Of a stretch of 64,000 bases of DNA, positions 4,310-17,673 are shown piece after piece; within the stretch, counting starts at the first letter, position 1, and the number at the start of each line of letters is the position of its first letter. The DNA lies in the NCBI RefSeq assembly GCF_036248255.1, contig NZ_CP109178.1:7197001-7261000 (forward strand), given 5' to 3'. The notes beneath the pieces were generated by a model. That model was not told the origin of the DNA. It saw only the letters and a program-made list of their open reading frames with translations, and did not search any database. Position numbers and translations under genes: made by a program. The DNA comes from Streptomyces sp. NBC_01717 (GTDB lineage: Bacteria > Actinomycetota > Actinomycetes > Streptomycetales > Streptomycetaceae).

Positions 4310-4524
4310 GCGTGTCCGGTGCCTGCCGGTCGTATGCGCAGAGCGACGACCTCAGGCCAAAAGGCCCTCTTGCGCCAGAAGTTGACGCCTTGAATACTCC
4401 CGAGCAGCGCTTGTCAGGGGCACGCCGTATCCGGAATGCGGAGCACGGTCGTGCGCCCGACTGCGCCTCACGGGTCCGACCACCCCACGGGCGGGCCCCC
4501 GTTTCCCCTTGGGAGGAACCAGAA

Positions 4525-5424
4525 GTGAGGATCAAGCGCACCACCCCCCTCAGCGGCATGGCGAGACGAAGCAGGGCCGTCGCGATCTCCGCAGGCCTTG
4601 TCGCTGTCGCCGCTCTCGCCGTGCCCAGCGCCCACGCCAACACCACCGGGACGTTCAGCGCCAACCAGCTCAGCGCCGCGAGCGACGCCGTGCTCGGCGC
4701 GGACATAGCCGGAACCGCCTGGAACGTCGACCCGGCGACCAAGACCCTGAGGGTCACGGTCGACAGCACGGTCTCGCAGGCCGAGATCAAGCAGATCAAG
4801 AAGTCCGCGGGAGCCAACGCCGGCGCCCTGCGGATCGAGCGCACGTCCGGCACGTTCAACAAGCTGCTCTCCGGCGGCGACGCCATCTACGCCCCCGGCT
4901 GGCGCTGTTCGCTGGGCTTCAACGTCCGCAGCGGCAGCACCTACTACTTCCTGACCGCCGGTCACTGCACCGACGGCAACCCGCCGTGGTACACCAACTC
5001 GTCGAACTCCACGAGCATCGGCCCGACGGTCGGATCGAGCTTCCCGACCAATGACTACGGCATCGTGCGGTACGACAACGCCTCGGTCGCCCACGCGGGC
5101 ACCGTCGGCAGCCAGGACATCACCAGCGCGGCCAACGCCACCGTCGGTATGTCCGTCACCCGCCGCGGCTCCACCACCGGCATCCACAGCGGAACCGTCA
5201 CCGCCCTCAACGCCACGGTCAACTACGGCGGCGGCGACATCGTCTACGGCATGATCCAGACAAACGTGTGTGCGGAGCCCGGCGACTCGGGTGGCCCGCT
5301 CTACTCCGGCACCAGGGCGATCGGGCTCACCTCGGGCGGCAGCGGCAACTGCAGCTCCGGTGGTACGACGTTCTTCCAGCCGGTCACGGAGGCACTCAGC
5401 GCATACGGCGTCAGCGTCTACTGA
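4525..5424 (+). CDS. sprB: Streptogrisin B-type secreted serine protease precursor (S1)
   Basis: A 299-aa pre-pro-protease of the chymotrypsin fold, the same length as S. griseus protease B and very close to it as recalled, including the C-terminal [22 protein letters not shown] 4525 is chosen because of the gggagg ribosome site at 4511-4516 and the match to the known start M/V-R-I-K-R-T. Residues 1-38 form a signal peptide, 39-114 the propeptide ([14 protein letters not shown]), and the mature enzyme starts at L115-S-G-G-D. The triad is H147 (T-A-G-H-C), D177 (N-D-Y-G) and S255 (G-D-S-G-G-P), with paired cysteines around H147 and S255. It degrades extracellular protein. It is monocistronic, with a terminator at 5472-5502. 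Confidence 0.96.
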
Positions 5425-5632: not shown

Positions 5633-6112
5633 GTGAAGCGTATCGGAGTGACCGGACATCGCAGCATCCCCGAGGAAGCGCACGCCCATGTGATGGCCGG
5701 GATACGAGCGGTGCTCTGCGGCTTCGACGGCTCCCTGGAAGCCCTCTCCAGCCTGGCTGTGGGAGCGGACCAGCTCTTCGCCGACCTGGCACTCGCCTGC
5801 GGGGCGGAACTGACCGTGGTCATCCCCAGCGGTGACTACGAGGCCTGCTTCGCCGACGGGCCCGAACTGGCCCGCTACCGAAGCCTCAAGGGCCGCGCGG
5901 CCCGCGAGGTCCGGCTGGACTTCCCGCACTCCACCGACGAGGCGTACTACGCGGCGGGCGCCTACATCGCCGACCACTGCGACCGGCTGCTCGCGGTCTG
6001 GGACGGCCGGCCCGCCCGCGGCTTCGGCGGGACGGGCGACATCGTGACGTACGCCCGGACACTCGGCCGCCCGGTGACGGTGATCTGGCGCGACGGAGTG
6101 GAGCGCACCTGA
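5633..6112 (+). CDS. SLOG superfamily nucleotide-binding protein
   Basis: A 159-aa Rossmann-like protein of the SLOG superfamily (related to YpsA, DprA and LOG). It opens with R-I-G-V-T-G-H-R, the nucleotide-loop motif of this group. It continues with S-L-A-V-G-A-D-Q-L-F-A (the G-A-D motif), L-T-V-V-I-P-S-G-D-Y, then C-D-R-L-L-A-V-W-D-G and G-F-G-G-T-G-D-I-V-T-Y-A-R, the glycine-rich ligand loop. SLOG domains are known or predicted to bind or process nucleotide-derived ligands in immunity-like systems. GTG 5633 is preferred because the conserved strand begins immediately and an agggggg-type site sits at 5618-5623; an in-frame upstream ATG would add a low-complexity tail. It converges, 52 bp away, on a SLATT membrane gene, a known partner family. 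The true ligand is unknown. Confidence 0.82.
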   Translation: MKRIGVTGHRSIPEEAHAHVMAGIRAVLCGFDGSLEALSSLAVGADQLFADLALACGAELTVVIPSGDYEACFADGPELARYRSLKGRAAREVRLDFPHSTDEAYYAAGAYIADHCDRLLAVWDGRPARGFGGTGDIVTYARTLGRPVTVIWRDGVERT

Positions 6113-6164
6113 CCGGTCGTCGCGAGCCGCTTCGTATACGGCCGGGCCACTACGGACGGTGCCG

Positions 6165-7091
6165 TCACGTCTGGTGTCGGGCGAGCCAGTCGGTGTGCTG
6201 CGGGGAGACGATGCGCTCGGTCTCGAACACCGCCCGGGGCCACTGCCGTTCGGTGAGCGTGGTCTCCATGGCGACCTGCATCGACTCCAGATCCTTCTCC
6301 ACCAGCGAATGGGCGGAGATCAGCGGATGGTGGCGGCGCATCTCGCTCCAGGCCAGACAGGCCGCGGCAGCCGCGGACAGCACCCCGGTCGCGGCGAAGG
6401 ACTGTCCGACGGAGAACATCCTCAACAGGGCGAGGACCAGGGCGAAGGCGGTCAGCGCGGCGATCGTGGTCGACCAGACCAGAGTGGCGCGCCGGGACAC
6501 CTCCTGGCGGCGACGGTACCAACTGCGCTGTTCGATCAGCCGGTCCCGCACATATGTCTCCTTGCGTACGGTGAACGCTTTGTCCCGTAACTCGCGCATG
6601 GAATCCGTGATGAGTCCGCCCGAATCCGTCATGCGCTCGCGAGGGTCCGGCCACCCCACCTTCCGGAGCTCCTGCAGTCCCTCTTCGAGACGATTTGCGA
6701 ACACTGCTTCGGGGTGCTGGGTGCCGGTGTCGAATGGAGAACCGTGCACCGAGTAACGCCAGCACATGGACTTGATGAACTCTGCCGCGGAGCGGTTTAG
6801 TTGCCAATGCGACTTTGCTTTGCGACGGGACGAGAGGTAGGTCGTGATCAGGACACCCAGGTAGGCCAACACACCGACGGAGTCAGTCAGTTGGAACGTG
6901 TCAGCAACCTCCCAGTGCCAGGGAAGCGCTGCCGGTATCGCGCCCGCGACCAGCAGGATCAGCTGCCAGCGGGTGGTATTCACCGCCTCCCGCTGCCGTG
7001 CGATCGCGATGGCGTCCGTGTGGTGAAAGAGCGCCGGTAGATCAGCGTTCCGGAAGACCAGGCTCTGCAGTGGTCCGGGAATCGCCGTCAT
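6165..7091 (-). CDS. DUF4231/SLATT-domain membrane protein (TTA codon)
   Basis: A 308-aa protein with two pairs of transmembrane helices, at about residues 43-59 and 70-87 and again at roughly 205-250. The pairs are separated by a charged helical region with W-Q-L-N-R-S-A-A-E-F-I-K-S-M-C-W-R-Y, the pattern of DUF4231 / SLATT (SMODS- and SLOG-associating 2TM) proteins. These are predicted pore-forming effectors in nucleotide-triggered conflict systems. ATG 7091 is chosen for the GGGAG at 5 nt; GTG 7121 is an alternative. Leu168 is encoded by TTA (complement of 6588-6590), which in Streptomyces requires the bldA tRNA. It is convergent with the SLOG gene and divergent from fxsA. That it is a partner of the SLOG protein is inference from family association and adjacency. 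Confidence 0.8.
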   Translation of the reverse strand: MTAIPGPLQSLVFRNADLPALFHHTDAIAIARQREAVNTTRWQLILLVAGAIPAALPWHWEVADTFQLTDSVGVLAYLGVLITTYLSSRRKAKSHWQLNRSAAEFIKSMCWRYSVHGSPFDTGTQHPEAVFANRLEEGLQELRKVGWPDPRERMTDSGGLITDSMRELRDKAFTVRKETYVRDRLIEQRSWYRRRQEVSRRATLVWSTTIAALTAFALVLALLRMFSVGQSFAATGVLSAAAAACLAWSEMRRHHPLISAHSLVEKDLESMQVAMETTLTERQWPRAVFETERIVSPQHTDWLARHQT

Positions 7092-7303
7092 CTTCACTCC
7101 CGTCTGCGGTTTTGTCTTCACTCATATGGCGGAATGGATGGTTCCGTTGTGTCTGTGGCAGTCTCACGTGACGCTCGCGTTGCAAGAGGGCGTCCTCAGT
7201 TGCCAACAGAGGCCATGAGAGTAAAGTCGTGCCGCCGGACACTGCAATGGTGCAGCTGGCCGGTGCAGTTTCCGTGTCCGGAACAATCCCCTCAAGGACG
7301 GCC

Positions 7304-7471
7304 GTGAAGAACTCTGAATCCTCCCTCTCCTTCGCCGTTGCGAAGAAGAGCCGTGTGCCGCTCGCCGAGATCGACGCGCGTGGCAAGGAAGCCGCCAGCA
7401 AGCTCGGGCGGGTGTTTGCCGCGTCCACCGGTCGCCCGACCCAGGCATCGACCTTCAACTCGGCTCTCTAG
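7304..7471 (+). CDS. fxsA: FxSxx-COOH RiPP precursor peptide FxsA
   Basis: A 55-aa peptide ending S-T-F-N-S-A-L, which fits the F-x-S-x-x-COOH signature exactly (F51, S53, two residues, stop). GTG 7304 is chosen because AAGGA at 7294-7298 lies 5 nt upstream; the frame is open further up to GTG 7229. The leader carries V-P-L-A-E-I-D-A-R-G-K-E-A-A-S-K-L-G-R-V, probably the part recognised by the maturase. The gene for the radical SAM enzyme starts 31 bp downstream. In the FxsB family, the aromatic ring of the Phe is joined to the third residue of the motif to make a three-residue cyclophane; here that would be F51-N52-S53. Whether the C-terminus is cleaved off or displayed on the whole peptide is not visible. 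Confidence 0.9.
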   Translation: MKNSESSLSFAVAKKSRVPLAEIDARGKEAASKLGRVFAASTGRPTQASTFNSAL

Positions 7472-7502
7472 TCACCCCCTCCGGGCTGGCTAGACTGGTG
7501 GA

Positions 7503-9776
7503 ATGACAGGACCCCTGGTCCCTTTCCGCGAAATCGTTCTCAAGGTTCACAGCAGGTGCGATCTTGCCTGCGACCATTGCTACGTCTATGAACATGCAGA
7601 TCAGAGCTGGCGTACCCGTCCGAAAACAATCTCTGACGAAGTCATCTTCCGGACTGCTCAGCGCCTGGCTGAGCATGCCAAGACACATGCACTGCCCTCC
7701 GTGTCAGTGATCCTGCACGGAGGGGAGCCTCTGCTGGCAGGCCCCGCGCGACTGCGGCGCATCTGCGAAGAACTCACCACCGCCTTCGACGGCGTCGCCG
7801 AGCTCGACCTGCGTATCCACACCAATGGTCTGCAGCTCAGCCCCCGCTATCTCGACCTCTTCAGCGAGTACGACGTCAAGGTGGGTATCTCCCTCGACGG
7901 CGACCGCGAGGCAAACGACCGGCACCGCCGGTTCGCCGACGGACGCAGCAGCCACCCCCTGGTCCTCAAGGCCGTCGAGCTGCTCCGCCAGGAGCGGTAC
8001 CGCCATCTGAACCTCGGGCTCCTGTGCACGATCGACATCGAGAACGACCCGCGCGCGGTCCTCGACGCCCTCGTCGAGCTCGATCCGCCGCTCATCGACT
8101 TCCTTCTTCCGCACGCCACCTGGGACGAGCCGCCGCCGCGCCCGGACGGCTCGCGCACCGCCTATGCCGACTGGCTCCTCGCGGTATTCGACCGCTGGCA
8201 GGAGCAGGGGCGCCCGGTGCCCGTGCGGCTCTTCTCCTCGGTCCTGTCCACGCTGAGCGGCGGTCCCAGCCTCACCGAGTCCCTCGGGCTCGCCCCCACC
8301 GACCTCGTCGTCGTCGAGACCGACGGCCAGTTGGAGCAGGTCGACTCGCTCAAGAGCGCCTACGAGGGTGCGGCGGCCACCGGGTTCGACGTCTTCACGC
8401 ACGCCTTCGACGAGGTCGCGGCCCATCCCGGGGTCCGGGCCCGGCAGCTCGGGCTGGACGGCGTCAGCGACACCTGCCGCAGCTGCCCCGTCGTGCGGTC
8501 GTGCGGCGGCGGTCTCTACACGCACCGCTACAAGTCGGCGGATGCCGTGGATCCCGCCCGGGCGTTCGACCACCCTTCCGTGTATTGCGACGATCTCGAG
8601 GCGCTGGTGCGCGGCGTCGAGGAACGGACGTCGGCCTCCGCGGTACCGGCCGCGGTGGCGGACCCCGCCGAGCTGGGCGCCGAGCAGCGGGACCTCACCC
8701 GCACAGCGCTCGCCGTGCTCCACAGCGACCTGGACGGACGCGGCGGCGACCACTGGGCGGCCGCCTGGGAGCTGGCGTCAACGGTAGAGGGATCCGAGGG
8801 CGGATCGCGAGGCCTGGACGAGGCGCTCGCGCACCCCTACGCCCGCAGCTGGCTGCATGACGCACTCTCCGCCGTGCACGAGGAGAGGCCCGGTGCCGGG
8901 AGGGTCGCGTGGCGGCTGTCGTCGTACGTCGCGGTTGCCGTGGTCCGCGCCGGGCTCGATCTGGCCGTACCGGTCGCCTACCGGGACGGCATGCTCGCCC
9001 TGCCCGGCCTCGGCTCGCTGCGGATCGACGGGCTGCGGGACGGCACGGCTCAGGTGCGCGTCACCGACGACGGCTTCCTGGTGCGCCGCGCGGGTGACGG
9101 CCGTCAGGGTGCTTTCGAACGGCGGATCGTACGGGGCCGGGCGCCCGGTCGGGACTGGCTGCCGGTGCGCCGGCTCGGTGGCGGTGACGCGCCCGGTGCG
9201 GCGCCCGGCTCGGCCCCCCGTTGGCTGCTCGACGACCTGGACCCGTACCGCGACTGCTTCCCCGCTCGCCCGGCCGCCCGGCTCCGGCAGGACGAGGCCG
9301 ACCGCCTCGGCGCCGGACTGGACCGGGCCTGGGCACGGATCGCGAAGCGCGCACCGCGGCACGCCGCGGAGATGGCCCAAAGTCTGACCACGGTGACGCC
9401 ACTGAACGGCCCCGCGCCGGGGGAGCCCTCGGTGGGACGGCACGGATACGGCGCGCTGGGCATCCGACCGGACGACAGCGCCGAGCAGTTGCCGCTCGCT
9501 CTGCTGCGGGGCTTTCGCCAGGCCAAGCTCCGGGCGCTGCTCGACGTCACGGATCTTTACGCGGCGGACGGCTCCTGGGAACATCGAACGCCGTGGCAGG
9601 AGGAACTGGTTCCGTTTTCCCGGCTGCTGGCTGAAACGTACGAACGGGTGGCGCTCGGGGCATTCGAGCCGCATTATCTCGACGGCGTACCGCAGGCCAT
9701 CGAAACGCTGGAGCGCGCAGCCGAGCTCACCGTCAGCGGAAAGCAGCTGCTCGACCTGATGAGAAAGGAGGTCTGA
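7503..9776 (+). CDS. fxsB: FxsB radical SAM/SPASM cyclophane maturase with degenerate HEXXH-like C-domain
   Basis: A 757-aa enzyme. Residues 15-30 carry the radical SAM cluster motif C19-x3-C23-x2-C26 (C-D-L-A-C-D-H-C-Y-V-Y-E-H), followed by H-G-G-E-P-L-L. The SPASM auxiliary-cluster cysteines are C325, C328, C334 and C362. It should install a C-C crosslink on FxsA using SAM in the cytoplasm. From about residue 390 a second domain resembles the HEXXH domain often linked to FxsB (A-K-L-R-A-L-L-D-V-T-D-L-Y, then W-Q-E-E-L-V-P-F-S-R-L-L). The motif that normally reads H-E-F-Q-H is R669-G-F-R-Q673 here, so zinc binding looks lost. ATG 7503 has only a weak ribosome site; coupling to fxsA is likely. 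fxsC follows after a 236-bp gap. Confidence 0.93.
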   Translation: MTGPLVPFREIVLKVHSRCDLACDHCYVYEHADQSWRTRPKTISDEVIFRTAQRLAEHAKTHALPSVSVILHGGEPLLAGPARLRRICEELTTAFDGVAELDLRIHTNGLQLSPRYLDLFSEYDVKVGISLDGDREANDRHRRFADGRSSHPLVLKAVELLRQERYRHLNLGLLCTIDIENDPRAVLDALVELDPPLIDFLLPHATWDEPPPRPDGSRTAYADWLLAVFDRWQEQGRPVPVRLFSSVLSTLSGGPSLTESLGLAPTDLVVVETDGQLEQVDSLKSAYEGAAATGFDVFTHAFDEVAAHPGVRARQLGLDGVSDTCRSCPVVRSCGGGLYTHRYKSADAVDPARAFDHPSVYCDDLEALVRGVEERTSASAVPAAVADPAELGAEQRDLTRTALAVLHSDLDGRGGDHWAAAWELASTVEGSEGGSRGLDEALAHPYARSWLHDALSAVHEERPGAGRVAWRLSSYVAVAVVRAGLDLAVPVAYRDGMLALPGLGSLRIDGLRDGTAQVRVTDDGFLVRRAGDGRQGAFERRIVRGRAPGRDWLPVRRLGGGDAPGAAPGSAPRWLLDDLDPYRDCFPARPAARLRQDEADRLGAGLDRAWARIAKRAPRHAAEMAQSLTTVTPLNGPAPGEPSVGRHGYGALGIRPDDSAEQLPLALLRGFRQAKLRALLDVTDLYAADGSWEHRTPWQEELVPFSRLLAETYERVALGAFEPHYLDGVPQAIETLERAAELTVSGKQLLDLMRKEV

Positions 9777-10012
9777 AGCAAGCATTCCGGTTCGGTCCGG
9801 ACTCCGGCACATACACGGGACAACCGGGAGGGGACGACCCACGAGCGAATTCGATCAAGGACGCGATCGATGGCGTCGGGCACGGATGACCGAAAAGGGG
9901 CGTTGAATGACCGAACGCCATGGGGGTGGAGCAAGGTCCGCTCCGGAATGATGAATTCGCTCGCATTCTTTTCACTCCTCGGGTGCGGGTGCTCACACAG
10001 GACGGGGGTCGT

Positions 10013-11344
10013 GTGCACGCAACAACGCAGCAGCGAGCGGCGGACCATCGGCCGTACTTCTTCTTGAGTTATGCGCACACACCGGGGTACGGCGGTGGAA
10101 CGGACCCCGATATGTGGGTCGAACGGCTCTTCCAGGATCTCTGTGGCCACGTGATGGCCATGACCGACCTGCCCGCGGGTGCGCCCGCGGGCTTCATGGA
10201 CCGCGAGATACGCTCCGGCGAGGGCTGGTCGGAACGGCTCGGCGAGGTGCTCGCCACCTGCCGGGTGTTCGTCCCGCTGTTCTCGCCCCGCTACTTCGCC
10301 AGCGAGATGTGCGGCAAGGAGTGGTACGCCTTCGCCCAGCGAGCCATCCACTACCGGGCCCGCCACAACCAGCCGGCCGAGGCCATCGTCCCGGCCCTGT
10401 GGGTGCCGGTGCCGCCCAGCCAACTGCCGGGCCCCGCCGAGCGGTTACAGTTCAACCACCGCGACTTCGGGGACCGTTACGTCAGCGACGGGCTGTACGG
10501 ACTGATCAAGCTCAGACTCTTCGCCGAGGAGTACGAGCGGGCGGTGTACGAACTCGCCAAGCGCATAGTCAACGTCGCCGACACCATGCGGATCGGCACC
10601 GGCCGTCCCGTCGACTACCGCCTGGCCCCCAGCGCCTTCGGCTCACCGAGCAGTGGAGTGACCGGCCCCCGCCCCATGCAGGTGACCATTGCGGCGGCCA
10701 CCCGCCACGACCTCCCCGAAGGGCGCAGCGTCGACTACTACGGCGACAACCCGCAGGACTGGAACCCCTACCACCCCGCCTCGGCACGGCCCCTGGCCTA
10801 TGTCGCCGAGGACCTGGTGCGCTCCCTCAACTACCAGGCCACCATCGCCTCCTTCGACGAGGAGTCCGGCCCCCCGGAGGGCAAACAGCCGCCCAGCAGA
10901 CCGGAGATCCTGCTCGTCGACCGCTGGGCCCTGCAGGACGAGGACCGGCGCCGGCGGCTCGCCGCCTTCGACGCCGAGAACCGCCCGTGGGTGACGATGG
11001 TCGTGCCGTGGAACCGCGAGGACCCCCAGAGCAGAGCCGCCGAGGCCGAGCTGACCGCGAAGCTCGAACAGACGATGCCGACCAAGATGCGCCAGGGCCG
11101 GGCCTACTGCCGCGCCGCCGCCCGGGGCGTACCGAGCATGGAGGCCTTCGGCCAGGTCCTGCCGCAGGTGGTCGAGGCGGCGGCCCAGCAGTACCTGCGA
11201 CATGCCGCGGTCTACCCACCCGCGACGGGCGGCGGGCACACCGAACGGACCCGGCTGACCGGGCCGATGGCGCAGACGCACTTCATACCGGAGACACACC
11301 ACCCTGCGACGGATGCGGAGGACACGGATGACGGCCAGTCGTGA
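10013..11344 (+). CDS. fxsC: TIR-like protein FxsC (TTA codon)
   Basis: A protein of 443 aa from GTG 10013; an in-frame ATG at 9920 would give 474 aa, but the 31 extra codons have poor codon bias. It begins with the TIR-like strand P-Y-F-F-L-S-Y-A-H-T-P-G-Y-G-G-G, then F-M-D-R-E-I-R-S-G-E-G-W, C-R-V-F-V-P-L-F-S-P-R-Y-F-A-S-E-M-C-G-K-E-W-Y-A-F. The last stretch corresponds to the S-x-W-C-x-x-E-L region of TIR folds. FxsC always accompanies FxsA/FxsB loci as I know the family; its function is unproven, and NAD cleavage or scaffolding are both possible. Leu145 is encoded by TTA (10445-10447), implying bldA-dependent translation. The gene ends 17 nt inside fxsT. The 9777-10012 gap may hold its own promoter. 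Confidence 0.87.
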   Translation: MHATTQQRAADHRPYFFLSYAHTPGYGGGTDPDMWVERLFQDLCGHVMAMTDLPAGAPAGFMDREIRSGEGWSERLGEVLATCRVFVPLFSPRYFASEMCGKEWYAFAQRAIHYRARHNQPAEAIVPALWVPVPPSQLPGPAERLQFNHRDFGDRYVSDGLYGLIKLRLFAEEYERAVYELAKRIVNVADTMRIGTGRPVDYRLAPSAFGSPSSGVTGPRPMQVTIAAATRHDLPEGRSVDYYGDNPQDWNPYHPASARPLAYVAEDLVRSLNYQATIASFDEESGPPEGKQPPSRPEILLVDRWALQDEDRRRRLAAFDAENRPWVTMVVPWNREDPQSRAAEAELTAKLEQTMPTKMRQGRAYCRAAARGVPSMEAFGQVLPQVVEAAAQQYLRHAAVYPPATGGGHTERTRLTGPMAQTHFIPETHHPATDAEDTDDGQS

Positions 11345-14300
11345 CGGGCGCATCGTCACCTTCTACTCGTACAAGGGCGGTACGGGGCGCACCATGGCCC
11401 TGGCCAACACCGCCTGGATACTCGCCGCCAACGGCAAACGGGTACTGGCCGTCGACTGGGACCTGGAGGCGCCGGGACTCCACCGGTTCTTCCACCCCTT
11501 CCTCGACCCCTCGACCCTCGGTGCCACCACCGGTGTCATCGATCTGATCACCGAGTACGCCTGGGCAGCGACCAGCCCGGTCCAGCGCGCCGACGACTGG
11601 CACCGTGACTACGCCCGGATCCAGCCGCACGCGGTCTCCCTCACGCCCGAGACGCTCGGCTGGGAGTTCCCGCAGGGCGGAACGCTCGACTTCGTCTCCG
11701 CCGGCCGGCAGAACCGCGAGTACTCCGCGACCGTCTCCACCTTCGACTGGGACAACTTCTACGACCGGCTCGGCGGCGGCCACTTCTTCGACGCCCTGCG
11801 CGACGACATGAAGGCCAACTACGACTACGTCCTCATCGACAGCCGGACCGGTCTCAGCGACATCGCCGACATCTGCACCGTCCATCTGCCCGACGTCCTC
11901 GTCGACTGCTTCACCCTCAGCGACCAGTCCATCGACGGTGCGGCCTCCGTCGCCCGGCAGATCTCCGAGCGCTACACCGGCCGCCCCATCTCGATCTTCC
12001 CCGTCCCGATGCGCATCGACGAGGGCGAGAAGGAGAAAGCCGACGCCGGACGGGCGCTGGCCCGGCTGAAGTTCGACCGGCTGCCGCGCGATCTGTCCGG
12101 CGACGAACTCACGGCCTACTGGGGCGCGGTGGAGATTCCGTACCGTCCCTACTACGCCTACGAGGAGACCCTGGCCACCTTCGGCGACGAGGCCGGTCTC
12201 ACCAACTCGCTGCTCTCTGCCTTCGAACGGCTCACCTCCGTCGTCACCGACCAGCAGGTCACCTCGATGCCGCCGATCGGCGAAGAGGTACGGCTGCGCA
12301 TCCGCGACGCGTTCACCCGGCGCAGGCCCGCGCTGCCCGCCGACCTGTTCCTCAGCTATGTGGCGGAGAACCGGATGTGGGCCGACTGGATCGAATCAGT
12401 CCTCACCCGGGCCGGGTTCCGTGTCGTGCCGCGCGACGTGTCCGCGGAGCGGGAGGCCCTGGAACCGGTGTCCGCGGTCGCCGAGAACGCGACCCGTACC
12501 GTGGTGCTGCTCTCCAGCGCCTACCTCAAGTCGCAGCGTGCGGTGACCCTCTGGGACCGGGCCGTCGCCGATGACCCCGGCGCCGCCCGGCGCCAGCTGC
12601 TGCCGCTCAGGGTCGGTGACGTGCGGCTGTCGGCGCCGTACATCGACCGCAACCCGGTCGACCTCTTCCGGCTCGACGAGGTGCACGCCACGACCTCCCT
12701 GCTGCGCGCCCTGGACCGGCCCGTCCAGCTCACCGACGGTGTCTCGCCCGGACCGCGCTTCCCCGGAACCGTCCCGAGGATCTGGAACGCACCCCCGCGC
12801 AACCCCGGCTTCACCGGCCGCTCCCTGGTCCTGGAGCGGATGCGCGACCAGCTCGGCGGCGGGATGGCCGTCGTACTTCCCCAGCCGCAGACCCTGTACG
12901 GGCTCGGCGGCGTCGGCAAGACCCAGGTGGCCCTGGAGTACGTGCACCGCTTCATGGCCGACTACGACCTGGTGTGGTGGATATCGTCCGAGCAGATCGA
13001 CGACGTGGTGGCCGGGCTCGCCGAGCTCGCCGTCCGTCTCGGCGCCCAGGGCGGCGACGACATGGCGGCCGCCTCGCAGGAGGCCGTCGATCTGCTGCGG
13101 CGCGGGGTCCCCTCGGACCGCTGGTTGCTGGTCTTCGACAACGCGGACGACCCCGAACGGCTGCGGCGGTACTTCCCGCAGGGCGGCTCCGGCCACATCC
13201 TGGTCACCTCCCGGAACCAGGCATGGTCGCAGCACGGCGATGCGCTGCCCGTCGATGTCTTCCTGCGGGAGGAGTCCATCGAGCACCTCCAGCGCCGTGC
13301 CCCCGGGCTGAGCGACGAGGACGCCGCCCAGGTGGCCACCGCCGTCGGCGACCTGCCGCTCGCCGTCGAACAGGCGGCCGCCTGGATCGCGGAGACCGCC
13401 ACCCCGATCGACACCTATCTGGAGCAGCTGGCCCAGCAGGCCCCCGAGGTCCTGGCGCTCAACCAGCCCGCCGGCTACCCGGAGCCGGTCGCCGCGACGT
13501 GGAACATCTCCATCGAACGTCTCAAGGAGCGTTCACCCGCCGCGGTGCGGCTGCTGCAACTCTGTGCCTTCTTCGCCCCCGAGCCGATCTCGGGGAACCT
13601 CCTGTACAGCAAGGAGATGATCGAGGCGCTCAAGCCGTACGACGCCTCACTCCAGGAGAAGCTGGTGCTGGGCCGGGTCATCCGGGAGATCGGCCGGTTC
13701 GCCCTCGCCAAGGTCGACCAGGTCTCCAACTCCATCCAGGTGCACCGTCTGGTGCAGGCCGTCATCCGGGCGCAGCTCAGCGAGGAGGAGCAGCAGGATG
13801 CCCGGCATGTCGTGCACCGCATTCTGGCGGGCGCCCGGCCCGATGACGACGAGCCGATCGACAACCCGTCGACCTGGCCGCAGTTCGCCACCATCTGGCC
13901 GCACCTCGGGCCGTCCGACGCACGCAACTGCAAGGAGCCCGAAGCGCGCAGGCTCCTGATCGACCGGGTCCGCTATCTGTGGAAGCGCGGAGACTTCAGG
14001 ACGGCCACCACCCTCTGCGAGGAGCTGCGCGCCCTCTGGAAGGAGACGCTGGGGGAGCGGGACATCCAGTACCTCTACCTCTGCTTCCACCTCTCCAACA
14101 TCTACCGCTCGCGCGGCCGTTACGTGGAGGCGAGGGAACTCGACGAGATCACCCTCAGCCGGCAGCGGGAGATGCTGGGCCCCGAGCACCCGCACACGTA
14201 CATGAGCACCAGCAGCCTCGCGACGGACCTCGGCACGCTGGGGGAGTACACCAGGGCGATCGAGCTGGCGACCGAGGCCACCGAGGGGTTCAGCCAGATC

Positions 14301-15263
14301 TTCCACGATTCGCACCCGAGGACGCTGGCCGCGGCCAACAACCTGGCGTTCACCCTGCGGGTCGTCGGGCAGTACGCCAGGGCCCGCGAGATCGACCAGG
14401 ACGTGTACGACCGGCGCGTGGAGGTGCTCGGCGCGGAGCATCCGTACAGCCTGTCCTCCGCCATGAACCTGGCCCGTGATCTGCGTGACGTCGGACGGTA
14501 CGAGGACTCCGTCGCCATCCTCAGCCGTACCTACGACAGCTACAAGGCGACCCTCGGGCGCGCTTTCCCCGGCACGCTGAGTGCGGCGAAGAGCCTCGCG
14601 GTCTCGCTGCGCAGGGCAGGGAGACTGGAGGACGCCCGCAGGCTCACGGTGGCCACCCGTGCCAGGTACCGGGCCAAATACACCTCGGCCAACCCCGAAT
14701 CGCTGGCCTGCGACCTCAATATGGCGGCCGACCTGTTCGCGGCGGGCGAGGCGACCGAGGCCAGGGATGCCGCGCAGGAGGTCGTCGACCAGTACATGAA
14801 GGTGCCGGGGGAGAGGCACCCGTACACCCTGGCCGCCCTGAACAACCTCGGCGTCTACCACTCGGGGGCCGGGGCGGCGGAGGAGTCGGAGAGGGTGCTG
14901 ACCCGGGTGGTCGCCACGATGCGGGAGGTGTACGGGCGCGAGCATCCCAACACGTTGTTCAGTGTGATGAACCTGGCCAACGCGACAGCCGAACGGGGCG
15001 ATCTCGAACTCGTACTGGAGACGGAACGGCGGGTGGCCGGACAGCTCCGGGACGTGCTCGGGGCGCATCACCCGGAGACCCTCGCGATGATGTCGAACAT
15101 GGCGGTGACGCTCGACGCGCTGGGGCGCAAGGACGAGGCGCTGCGGGTCAAGTCGGAGACGGTCGAGGAGCTGTCCCGGCAGCTCGGTGACGACCATCCG
15201 CTGACCCGGATCGCCCGGGAGGAGGAGCGCTTCCAGCGCGAACTGGAGCCGCTCGCGGTGTGA
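11328..15263 (+). CDS. fxsT: FxsT: KGGTGRT ATPase - TIR-like - NB-ARC - TPR protein
   Basis: A 1311-aa multidomain protein starting at ATG 11328 with GGAG 7 nt upstream, overlapping fxsC. Residues 8-330 are a ParA/MinD-like ATPase with a variant Walker A (Y-K16-G-G-T-G-R-T22, Arg replacing the usual second Lys) and D-S-R-T-G-L-S. From about 339 there is a TIR-like domain (D-L-F-L-S-Y-V-A-E-N, V-V-L-L-S-S-A-Y-L-K-S-Q). An NB-ARC/STAND NTPase follows: G525-L-G-G-V-G-K531-T, Walker B-like W-L-L-V-F-D-N-A-D-D, and the L676-P-L-A motif. From about 885 to the end are repeated tetratricopeptides of the H-P-x-T-L type. This is the architecture of a ligand-gated STAND switch fused to effector-like parts. 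It closes the fxs operon; a hairpin follows at 15268-15299. Confidence 0.92.
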   Translation: MTASRDGRIVTFYSYKGGTGRTMALANTAWILAANGKRVLAVDWDLEAPGLHRFFHPFLDPSTLGATTGVIDLITEYAWAATSPVQRADDWHRDYARIQPHAVSLTPETLGWEFPQGGTLDFVSAGRQNREYSATVSTFDWDNFYDRLGGGHFFDALRDDMKANYDYVLIDSRTGLSDIADICTVHLPDVLVDCFTLSDQSIDGAASVARQISERYTGRPISIFPVPMRIDEGEKEKADAGRALARLKFDRLPRDLSGDELTAYWGAVEIPYRPYYAYEETLATFGDEAGLTNSLLSAFERLTSVVTDQQVTSMPPIGEEVRLRIRDAFTRRRPALPADLFLSYVAENRMWADWIESVLTRAGFRVVPRDVSAEREALEPVSAVAENATRTVVLLSSAYLKSQRAVTLWDRAVADDPGAARRQLLPLRVGDVRLSAPYIDRNPVDLFRLDEVHATTSLLRALDRPVQLTDGVSPGPRFPGTVPRIWNAPPRNPGFTGRSLVLERMRDQLGGGMAVVLPQPQTLYGLGGVGKTQVALEYVHRFMADYDLVWWISSEQIDDVVAGLAELAVRLGAQGGDDMAAASQEAVDLLRRGVPSDRWLLVFDNADDPERLRRYFPQGGSGHILVTSRNQAWSQHGDALPVDVFLREESIEHLQRRAPGLSDEDAAQVATAVGDLPLAVEQAAAWIAETATPIDTYLEQLAQQAPEVLALNQPAGYPEPVAATWNISIERLKERSPAAVRLLQLCAFFAPEPISGNLLYSKEMIEALKPYDASLQEKLVLGRVIREIGRFALAKVDQVSNSIQVHRLVQAVIRAQLSEEEQQDARHVVHRILAGARPDDDEPIDNPSTWPQFATIWPHLGPSDARNCKEPEARRLLIDRVRYLWKRGDFRTATTLCEELRALWKETLGERDIQYLYLCFHLSNIYRSRGRYVEARELDEITLSRQREMLGPEHPHTYMSTSSLATDLGTLGEYTRAIELATEATEGFSQIFHDSHPRTLAAANNLAFTLRVVGQYARAREIDQDVYDRRVEVLGAEHPYSLSSAMNLARDLRDVGRYEDSVAILSRTYDSYKATLGRAFPGTLSAAKSLAVSLRRAGRLEDARRLTVATRARYRAKYTSANPESLACDLNMAADLFAAGEATEARDAAQEVVDQYMKVPGERHPYTLAALNNLGVYHSGAGAAEESERVLTRVVATMREVYGREHPNTLFSVMNLANATAERGDLELVLETERRVAGQLRDVLGAHHPETLAMMSNMAVTLDALGRKDEALRVKSETVEELSRQLGDDHPLTRIAREEERFQRELEPLAV

Positions 15264-15267
15264 GTTG

Positions 15268-15299
15268 CGGGAGCGTCCGGCCGCCGCCGGCCGCTCCCG
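15268..15299. terminator. Hairpin between convergent fxsT and hydrolase genes
   Basis: Outer arms CGGGAGCG and CGCTCCCG close around a GC-rich, self-complementary CCGGC/GCCGG interior. It sits just past the fxsT stop, and could serve both convergent transcripts. Confidence 0.6.
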
Positions 15300-15320
15300 G
15301 TCCCACTGCTCACCCGGTTA

Positions 15321-16265
15321 TCACTCTGCGGGCGTATCCAGCAGCCAGGTGAGGATCCGGGGGAGCGCGTGGAGCGCGTCGAAGTGCGCGGCCGCCGGTT
15401 CCAGCACGACGGTGGCGTGCGGGATGCGCTCGGCCAGCCAGCGTGAGTGACCGACCGGTGAGAACACGTCCTTCTCACCGTGCCACAGCAGCACCGGACC
15501 CGTGATGTCCGCCGGGTCGAACCCCCACGGGCGGCTGAACGCGATCGCGTCGTCGATCCAGCCGTATGCCGAAGTGCGCAGCCCCTCACGGTAGTTGTTC
15601 AGCAGCATGGAGCGGACCCCGGCGTCGTTCACCACCATCCGGTCGGAATCGGTCAGCTCCCGGCGCAGATCGTCGATGAGCCGAACCGGATTCTGTCTGA
15701 TCACCGCGGACCGCGAGATGAACGACTCCGCCAGTCCGTCCGGGTCGGCCGCCGCCGTGGAGTACGCCAGCACATTCGAGGCGGCCATCCCGTCGAACCA
15801 GTCGAGGCCGTCCGCGCCCCAGGGGGCCAGCCCGACCAGTGCTGCGGTACGGGTGACCCGCTCGGGCATCAGCGCGGCGCAGGCCAGCGCGTGCGAGGCG
15901 CCGCCGGAGCGGCCCACCACGGCGAACCTCTCCAGCCCGATATGGTCCGCGATGGCCCGTACGTCCTCCACGACATCGGCGACACTGCGGCCCGGCAGCC
16001 GGTCGGAGCCGCCGTATCCGGGCCGGTCGTAGGTGATCAGCTGGGTCTTGCGCTGGTACAGCACCATGCCGCGCGGAGCCGGACCGAGCCGGCTTCCGGG
16101 CGTTCCGTGCAGCAGAAAGACCGGTCTGCCCCGCGGATCCCCCAGACGCTCGACCAGCAGATGCCGCCCGTCCGCCGCGCGCACCCGACTGCGCACTCCG
16201 TGCCTCCTCAGCTCGGTGCGGGCACTGCGTGCCCGGCTTTTCCCGCCGATTCGATGATTACCCAT
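15321..16265 (-). CDS. Alpha/beta hydrolase
   Basis: A 314-aa hydrolase of the alpha/beta fold. Visible catalytic features are the oxyanion segment L-L-H-G-T-P-G-S-R, the nucleophile elbow G-R-S-G-G-A-S, an acid in H-G-E-K-D-V-F-S-P and the late His in P-A-A-A-H-F-D-A-L. No signal peptide, so it is cytoplasmic. ATG 16265 is chosen as the first start adjacent to a basic N-terminus; ATG 16313 is also open but both have poor ribosome sites. It faces fxsT tail to tail and diverges from sprD. Substrate unknown; this group includes haloperoxidase-like esterases and lactonases. Nothing ties it to the fxs operon apart from proximity. Confidence 0.85.
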   Translation of the reverse strand: MGNHRIGGKSRARSARTELRRHGVRSRVRAADGRHLLVERLGDPRGRPVFLLHGTPGSRLGPAPRGMVLYQRKTQLITYDRPGYGGSDRLPGRSVADVVEDVRAIADHIGLERFAVVGRSGGASHALACAALMPERVTRTAALVGLAPWGADGLDWFDGMAASNVLAYSTAAADPDGLAESFISRSAVIRQNPVRLIDDLRRELTDSDRMVVNDAGVRSMLLNNYREGLRTSAYGWIDDAIAFSRPWGFDPADITGPVLLWHGEKDVFSPVGHSRWLAERIPHATVVLEPAAAHFDALHALPRILTWLLDTPAE

Positions 16266-16587
16266 CAACGGCCCTATAGAGGCCCCCTGTTGAGGTAAAG
16301 CCTGACCGCGCATCCGGCAGGGGCGTGAACCGGACCCGCAAGGGCCAATACCGGACAGGTCCAGTCCTCACCCACTGCCGACCGGTCGGTTGCACGCGGT
16401 GTTCGCAATCGGAATCGACATGGTGTGACGCCGGGTAAGTGAACGCGGCGCGGCGAAACGGTGGTGTCGTGTGTGCGTCCTGAAGTCGACCTTGTGTGCT
16501 ATCTGCCCGGTCGGAATAGTGGGCGGCTCCATCCTCCGTACCCAAGGCACCCCACTTGCCTGTGTACGGCCCCACAGGAGGTAGAAG
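16266..16587 (+). promoter_or_regulatory. sprD / hydrolase divergent intergenic region
   Basis: This 322-bp gap holds the divergent promoters. Upstream of sprD, TTGTGT (16492-16497), a 17-bp spacer and AATAGT (16515-16520) could be a -35/-10 pair. A perfect 12-bp palindrome CCGACCGGTCGG lies at 16378-16389 and could bind a regulator. The sprD ribosome site AGGAGG is at 16576-16581. No gene is recognisable inside. All assignments are pattern-based. Confidence 0.4.
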
Positions 16588-17673
16588 TTGAAGCATCGAC
16601 GCATATCCAGGAAGCGCGCGGTCATGGCCGGATCGGCCGTCGTCGCCCTGGTCGCAGCGGGAGTCACGTTCCAGAGTGCGAACGCCAGTGACGACGTACC
16701 GCAGTTCACCGTCCGGACCCTGACGGCGAACGCGGCCGGAAAGCTCGCCACCACTCTCGGACAGGATCTGGGCGGCGACGCGGCCGGCTCGTACTACGAC
16801 GCCAAGTCGAAGAACCTGGTCGTGAACGTGGTCGACCGGGCCGCCGCCGAGCAGGTGCGGCAGGCGGGCGGCAGGGCGAAGGTCGTGACGAACTCGCTCG
16901 CCGAGCTGAAGTCGGCCCGGCAGACCCTCACCACCAAGGCCACGATCCCCGGCACCTCATGGGCCGTCGACCCGGTCAGCAATAAGGTGGTCGTCACCGC
17001 CGACCGCACGGTCGACGGCGCCGCCTGGGACAGACTCAGCACGGTCGTCGAGGGGCTGGGCGCCAAGGCCGAACTCAAGAAGACGGCTGGGGAGTTCAAG
17101 CCGTTCATCGCCGGCGGCGACGCGATCTGGGGCAACGGCGGGCGCTGCTCGCTCGGCTTCAACGTGGTCAAGGACGGCGAGCCGTACTTCCTGACCGCGG
17201 GACACTGCACCGAGGCGATCAGCAGCTGGTCCGACTCGCAGGGCGGCGCGGAGATCGGAACGAACGCGGGATCCGAATTCCCGGGCAACGACTTCGGGCT
17301 GGTGAAGTACACCTCCGACACGCCGCACCCCAGCGAGGTCGACCTCTACAACGGCTCCACCCAGCCGATCACCAAGGCGGGCGAGGCGACCGTCGGCATG
17401 ACGGTGACTCGTAGCGGTTCCACCACCCAGGTGCACGACGGCCAGGTCACCGGCCTCGACGCCACGGTGAACTACGGCAACGGCGACATCGTCGAAGGCC
17501 TCATCCAGACGACGGTCTGCGCGGAGCCGGGCGACAGCGGCGGCTCGCTCTTCGCGGGCGACACAGCGATCGGCCTGACCTCCGGCGGCAGCGGCGACTG
17601 CTCCTCGGGCGGGGAGACCTTCTTCCAGCCGGTGCCCGAGGCGCTGGCGGCATTCGGGGCCGAGATCGGCTGA
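16588..17673 (+). CDS. sprD: Streptogrisin D-type secreted serine protease precursor (S1)
   Basis: A 361-aa pre-pro-protease closely resembling streptogrisin D as recalled (K-H-R-R-I-S-R-K-R start, A-A-F-G-A-E-I-G end). The start is a TTG at 16588 with a textbook AGGAGG 6 nt upstream. A signal peptide covers about residues 1-33, and a long propeptide with two N-A-A-G-K-L-like segments runs to about residue 173; the mature enzyme begins I174-A-G-G-D-A-I-W. The triad is H206 (T-A-G-H-C), D235 (N-D-F-G) and S317 (G-D-S-G-G-S), with cysteines next to H206 and S317. It is secreted and probably prefers large hydrophobic residues like its relatives. The last 150 bp of the gene have been copied to 19567-19718. 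It is a paralogue of sprB 12 kb away in the same orientation. Confidence 0.95.

Follow-up and report, generated by a model that had tools for sequence, protein, structure and literature searches.

The FxSxx-COOH system is a kind of ribosomally synthesized and post-translationally modified peptide (RiPP) system already named in NCBIfam, where separate models describe its precursor FxsA (TIGR04268), its maturase FxsB (TIGR04269), its TIR protein FxsC (NF040588/TIGR04276) and its large STAND protein FxsT (NF040586). FxsB presumably forms a short cyclophane by crosslinking FxsA at its Phe-x-Ser motif; we know of no explanation for the presence of TIR and STAND genes in a RiPP operon. Here we consider such a locus in Streptomyces sp. 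NBC_01717, lying within 64,000 nucleotides of its 10.2-Mb genome (contig NZ_CP109178.1, C1:7197001-7261000; hereafter the window, with positions counted from its first letter). The same four proteins score over the cut-offs and stand in the same order, but they are linked here to a SLOG protein, a tandem SLATT protein and a hydrolase, which those family models do not name; neither SLOG nor SLATT occurs in the names of the NCBIfam Fxs family models seen in this analysis. Our leading reading, held tentatively, is that of a conflict-type module of STAND and TIR proteins whose input is a RiPP and whose output at the membrane is predicted to be gated by a nucleotide; in it, signalling that we infer is built upon genes, domains, conserved residues and co-location that are directly observed.

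Other described systems share some of these parts. Thoeris couples the TIR protein ThsB to the SLOG-bearing ThsA, whereas this locus has a free-standing SLOG protein, a SLATT membrane protein as the effector and, in addition, a STAND protein and a RiPP. With its SLOG protein consisting of a single 159-amino-acid domain and no ThsA-type fusion of SLOG to an effector, the locus falls outside Thoeris; the model for the type III protein ThcB4 (NF058526) gave 10.3 bits, its cut-off being 220. The SLOG/SLATT nucleotide-centred conflict systems, reportedly described by Burroughs and co-workers, resemble the locus in that SLATT_3 and SLATT_1 both score over the cut-off beside an adjoining SLOG gene, and differ from it in lacking the linkage to a RiPP operon. 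NB-ARC/TIR STAND receptors likewise combine an NB-ARC domain bearing an intact P-loop with TPRs and a TIR domain; here, however, FxsT has a degenerate TIR domain and a ParA-like ATPase fused at its front, and the presumed catalytic TIR is a separate protein.

The four fxs genes all lie on the plus strand. The first, fxsA (7304..7471), encodes a 55-amino-acid precursor from a GTG start (TIGR04268, 37.3 bits; cut-off 28), whose C-terminus, FNSAL, has the F-x-S-x-x form. It is followed by fxsB (7503..9776), for a radical SAM/SPASM maturase with an inactivated beta-hydroxylase-type extension (TIGR04269, 583.7 bits; cut-off 370), and by fxsC (9920..11344), for a TIR protein with a putative catalytic Glu134 (NF040588, 234.9 bits; cut-off 130; TIGR04276, 245.5 bits; cut-off 55), the real start of which may lie further in, as relatives often begin near residue 22. 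The last, fxsT (11313..15263), joins a KGGTGRT ATPase, a degenerate TIR domain, an NB-ARC (STAND) domain and TPRs (NF040586, 1035 bits; cut-off 300; NF047398 KGGVGR ATPase, 150 bits; cut-off 90); by eye, its translation more likely begins at 11328, with the second Met, which follows GGAGG. Pfam places TIR_2 in both FxsC and FxsT, NB-ARC and TPR_12 in FxsT, and DUF7779 also in FxsT. A first-pass annotation of this DNA had named the four genes, read their main domains and claimed overlapping genes, all of which holds: each protein exceeds its curated NCBIfam cut-off, the order recurs in relatives, and the fxsC and fxsT frames do overlap. Its picture of a locus complete at 7304..15263 is right for the fxs genes and too narrow for the true extent, about 5633 to 16313, to which SLOG, SLATT and the hydrolase belong.

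Upstream, a gene with a GTG start at 5633 (5633..6112, plus strand) encodes the stand-alone 159-amino-acid protein, to which an AlphaFold2 model and a fold search assign a SLOG/DprA fold. Identity with ShosA (PDB 8zva), a larger protein with other partners, is 23%, and a shared fold is no proof of function. Between this gene and fxsA, and divergent from the latter, lies the gene for the membrane-effector-type protein (6165..7121, minus strand), in which SLATT_3 and SLATT_1 reach 128.9 and 122.4 bits in Pfam and 184.6 and 103.9 bits in NCBIfam. A SLATT effector would be expected to have two membrane helices in each domain; crude hydropathy gives this protein one in the window and three at loci L047 and L050. 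Downstream and convergent with fxsT, an alpha/beta hydrolase (15321..16313, minus strand; Abhydrolase_1, 74.3 bits) shows sub-cut-off matches to S33-type prolyl aminopeptidases. PADLOC matched FxsB to pVip (35.2 bits) and the FxsT ATPase to PDC-M28B (80.6 bits), and gave no match for SLATT, SLOG or the hydrolase.

How tightly the SLOG–SLATT pair is tied to fxs was measured across 246 Streptomyces genomes, counting FxsC at E<=1e-20. FxsC occurs in 98 of them at 146 places, and the SLATT protein in 80; after split-gene pieces were merged, the latter occupies 81 places, 73 of them strong (at least 42% identity) and 8 weak (at most 34%). FxsC lies no more than 15 kb from 66 of the 73 strong places, where chance would put a random place so close in less than 1% of cases (30 kb per FxsC in about 9 Mb). 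Five of the other seven are on contigs without FxsC, the ends of which were not checked, with FxsC on another contig of the same genome, and the last two (G081 and G182, loci L161 and L162) show no FxsB, FxsC or FxsT match at the site. By hand count, every one of the 72 genomes with a strong SLATT has FxsC somewhere, against 98/246 overall, and 7/8 of the genomes with a weak SLATT only are without it. SLATT in turn lies within 15 kb of 72 of the 73 best SLOG places, weaker SLOG relatives being found elsewhere. The converse fails, with 80/146 FxsC places having no SLATT nearby. These counts are not independent events, as most of the Streptomyces loci represent one site between two S1 proteases, and some represent one genome taken twice (L035 and L127). 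Outside Streptomyces, we looked at 20 loci, one per genome, from 20 of the 21 other-genus genomes with a match over the cut-off, and only one carries SLOG and SLATT; the pair thus belongs, as an accessory, to a subset of Fxs loci and is not a general Fxs part.

It could be objected that SLOG and SLATT form an independent pair, beside fxs merely by shared descent, and indeed L161 and L162 keep both genes while showing no B, C or T there, and the two pairs stand on opposite strands in orthologous loci. Against this, the genomes of L161 and L162 both have FxsC elsewhere; the pair recurs in other settings, namely at sites without S1 proteases (L047, L048 and L050), at 13/66 places where SLATT and FxsC share a strand (inversions of the A-B-C-T block in the cases looked at, L036, L150 and L152-L154) and, in another family, at a locus with a single strand carrying SLOG, SLATT, B, C and T (L189); and SLOG is found with a different membrane protein at fxs loci. 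We regard such a bystander pair as highly improbable.

The second element of the conflict-type reading is a proposed division of labor between the two TIR domains. FxsC has its putative catalytic Glu in 119/119 loci, at identities down to about 33%; we take it to be catalytic from what is known of TIR domains in general, the FxsC structure model being too poor to confirm this. At the corresponding position of the FxsT TIR, Glu occurs in 1/113 loci, the others having Leu (57, including the window), Val (41), Asp (4), Ala (3), a gap (3), Phe (2), Gly (1) or Thr (1). Elsewhere in FxsT, the KGGTGR Lys is present in 116/116 and the STAND P-loop Lys in 131/134. The question about NAD levels, which the first-pass annotation had put to fxsC and fxsT together, should narrow to fxsC. 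The invariant Glu would also suit a scheme in which FxsC, once FxsT is triggered, does no more than destroy NAD+, with SLOG and SLATT working separately, for instance in a regulatory role or as another arm; many loci with FxsC and FxsT but without SLOG and SLATT speak for it. Yet the tight SLOG-SLATT-FxsC linkage in Streptomyces, as well as a TrkA-N/RyR partner in two loci, suggests that a nucleotide is produced and has a receiver, and we consider depletion alone improbable.

Those two loci (L049 and L057, of another family) have SLOG beside a TrkA-N/RyR membrane protein in SLATT's place (RyR, 74.7 and 55.1 bits). The exchange is suggestive because SLOG and RyR domains are both binders of NAD-derived nucleotides. 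On the conflict-type reading, modified FxsA would stay in the cell, where it would trigger FxsT, bind it as a ligand or be the element that it guards. FxsT is a STAND ATPase that also carries the ParA-like KGGTGRT ATPase, and its TIR domain may serve as a non-catalytic adaptor. Once switched on, FxsT might assemble the catalytic TIR of FxsC, which would consume NAD+ and make a nucleotide signal; this nucleotide would be bound by the SLOG protein, which could then open or recruit the SLATT protein in the membrane, leading to growth arrest or cell death. The peptide itself may be trimmed or degraded by the alpha/beta hydrolase. We infer every arrow in this chain, from peptide to STAND, TIR, nucleotide, SLOG and membrane effector. 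Its most specific form, a Thoeris-like pathway behind a RiPP, in which a cyclophane-bearing ribosomal peptide is the guarded or triggering element of a STAND receptor with a pseudo-TIR adaptor and an NAD-derived product of FxsC gates SLOG, whose membrane effector (SLATT or TrkA-N/RyR) can be exchanged, is possible but doubtful. The earlier suggestion that TIR and NB-ARC place the locus in a conflict or developmental system gains from SLOG, tandem SLATT and the TrkA-N/RyR swap, and also from the SAV_2336 fusion, the MoxR/AAA plasmid neighbors and the C+T pairs without detectable fxsB described below; the role it gave the peptide, as a signal or guarded element, keeps its conjectural standing. 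Together, the SLOG–SLATT link, the split between catalytic-looking and degenerate TIR domains and the exchange of membrane partners turn the locus into a testable pathway with named residues, and, if true, a post-translationally modified peptide would be an intracellular immune ligand in bacteria.

The manner in which the locus evolves weighs against an arms race. It sits mostly at one syntenic Streptomyces site, and, measured against nine relatives, ratios of nonsynonymous to synonymous substitution (dN/dS) reveal very strong purifying selection on NB-ARC (0.00-0.08), the ATPase (0.02-0.09) and the FxsC TIR (0.01-0.10). The FxsT TIR (0.11-0.28), SLATT (0.10-0.22), SLOG (0.03-0.24) and the radical SAM part of FxsB (0.09-0.18) follow, and FxsA ranges over 0.21-0.65. 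Because this evolution is slow and syntenic, a developmental or stress circuit fits as well. In it, these parts would slowly regulate sporulation, the growth of hyphae or the programmed death of compartments, the peptide being an endogenous cue, and would not serve anti-phage defense; FxsC also has no match across 50,697 phage records. Such a circuit sits less easily with the patchy distribution of FxsC (98/246 Streptomyces genomes), with partial losses at L046, L161, L162 and L169, and with SLATT, SLOG, TIR and STAND parts, which are typical of conflict systems. We hold it to be somewhat unlikely.

The neighborhood also invites the idea of a secreted natural product, with FxsA exported, matured by neighboring proteases and acting on other cells, and with FxsC and FxsT regulating production or immunity. 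The first-pass statement that the operon lacks a protease is correct for fxsA to fxsT; beyond it, the alpha/beta hydrolase adjoins (as it does 105/124 complete FxsC+FxsT loci), and on either side of the locus is an S1 protease with an alpha-lytic prodomain (4312-5424 and 16588-17673), the two being paralogues. These enzymes, like the AAC(3)-like gene that some relatives carry, would suit an exported product. On the other side, no transporter is found among the called genes between the two S1 proteases, no secretion signal was seen in FxsA by eye, and the S1 pair, while syntenic in many Streptomyces, appears among L037-L053 and L057 only at the Streptomyces loci L044-L046. An exported product is very unlikely in our estimation, and what is found at the locus suggests that the peptide serves an intracellular alarm and not as an ordinary antibiotic.

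FxsA C-termini at 78 loci read FNSAL (49), FSSAL (19), FNSSL (7) or one of three others found once each, the F-x-S-x-x ending of these homologues being built into the search itself. A candidate promoter ahead of fxsA (7200..7250, plus strand) was read by eye as TTGCCA (7200-7205), 16 bases and TAAAGT (7222-7227); the block around it is conserved in many orthologous loci, in an alignment of 18 rows of which several do not align, and a 34-base motif within it (7217-7250) matches the genome only at itself when up to 3 mismatches are allowed. In FxsB, the radical SAM Cys triad is kept in 113/114 matches, the remaining one not covering it, and the three SPASM Cys tested are kept in 114/114. The FxsB extension matches the model of the form that has lost HExxH (NF040587, 412.5 bits; cut-off 225), and an FxsBH with an active beta-hydroxylase was rejected, as the extension in the window has no HExxH. 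That motif is missing in 90/112 long FxsB frames and intact in 22/112; it is intact in 1/80 loci combining SLOG, SLATT and a long FxsB, and intact copies are found in Fxs loci of other families. At 8628-9773, the extension evolves at a dN/dS of 0.31-0.51, where most other parts of the locus stay below 0.3.

Across 161 loci examined, a set biased to orthologues because 80 were chosen by similarity to the window FxsC, FxsC and the FxsT ATPase are adjacent in 133, of which 124 are not cut by contig ends. SLOG, SLATT, B and the hydrolase accompany 77 of these 124 (20 with the AAC(3)-like gene as well), SLOG with TrkA-RyR 2, and B alone 14, while 5 have no accessory. The C+T loci L168, L170 and L173 have no B match and carry an extra gene that is TIR-like by eye, and L046 has fxsT beside a different, shorter and single SLATT gene (9215-9778; NF033634, 102.7 bits) and no B or C match; therefore, C+T, or T, can stand without RiPP genes. 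At L169, which has no fxsB match, a shorter single SLATT gene lies beside fxsC and an fxsT lacking the ATPase match.

Several further observations concern relatives of the individual parts. The AAC(3)-like acetyltransferase gene turns up in many Fxs loci, frequently between fxsB and fxsC (e.g., L047, 8427-9200, 227 bits; L051, L053, L057 and L164-L167), and its product may modify the peptide. An orphan FxsC at L140 (8300-11230) is fused to a SAV_2336 N-terminal domain. On the plasmids NZ_CP108204.1 and NZ_CP108290.1, FxsC lies inside much longer genes adjoining MoxR/AAA ATPase genes; one of these long genes is adjacent to a recombinase gene and close to a Tn3 transposase gene. Distant relatives of SLATT and SLOG lie elsewhere; by eye, their neighbor at L215 is a TIR-like gene and at L212 a caspase-like gene, while at L205 and L210 they adjoin small membrane proteins with two helices. 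The host genome itself contains one more FxsA match and additional FxsT matches, including a second FxSxx-COOH locus at C1:3401001-3421000 (L033; FxsA, 48.8 bits; FxsT, 876.9 bits), where an fxsB-like gene is present and the neighbors, by eye, are trypsin-like, MoxR-type AAA and SAV_2336-type genes.

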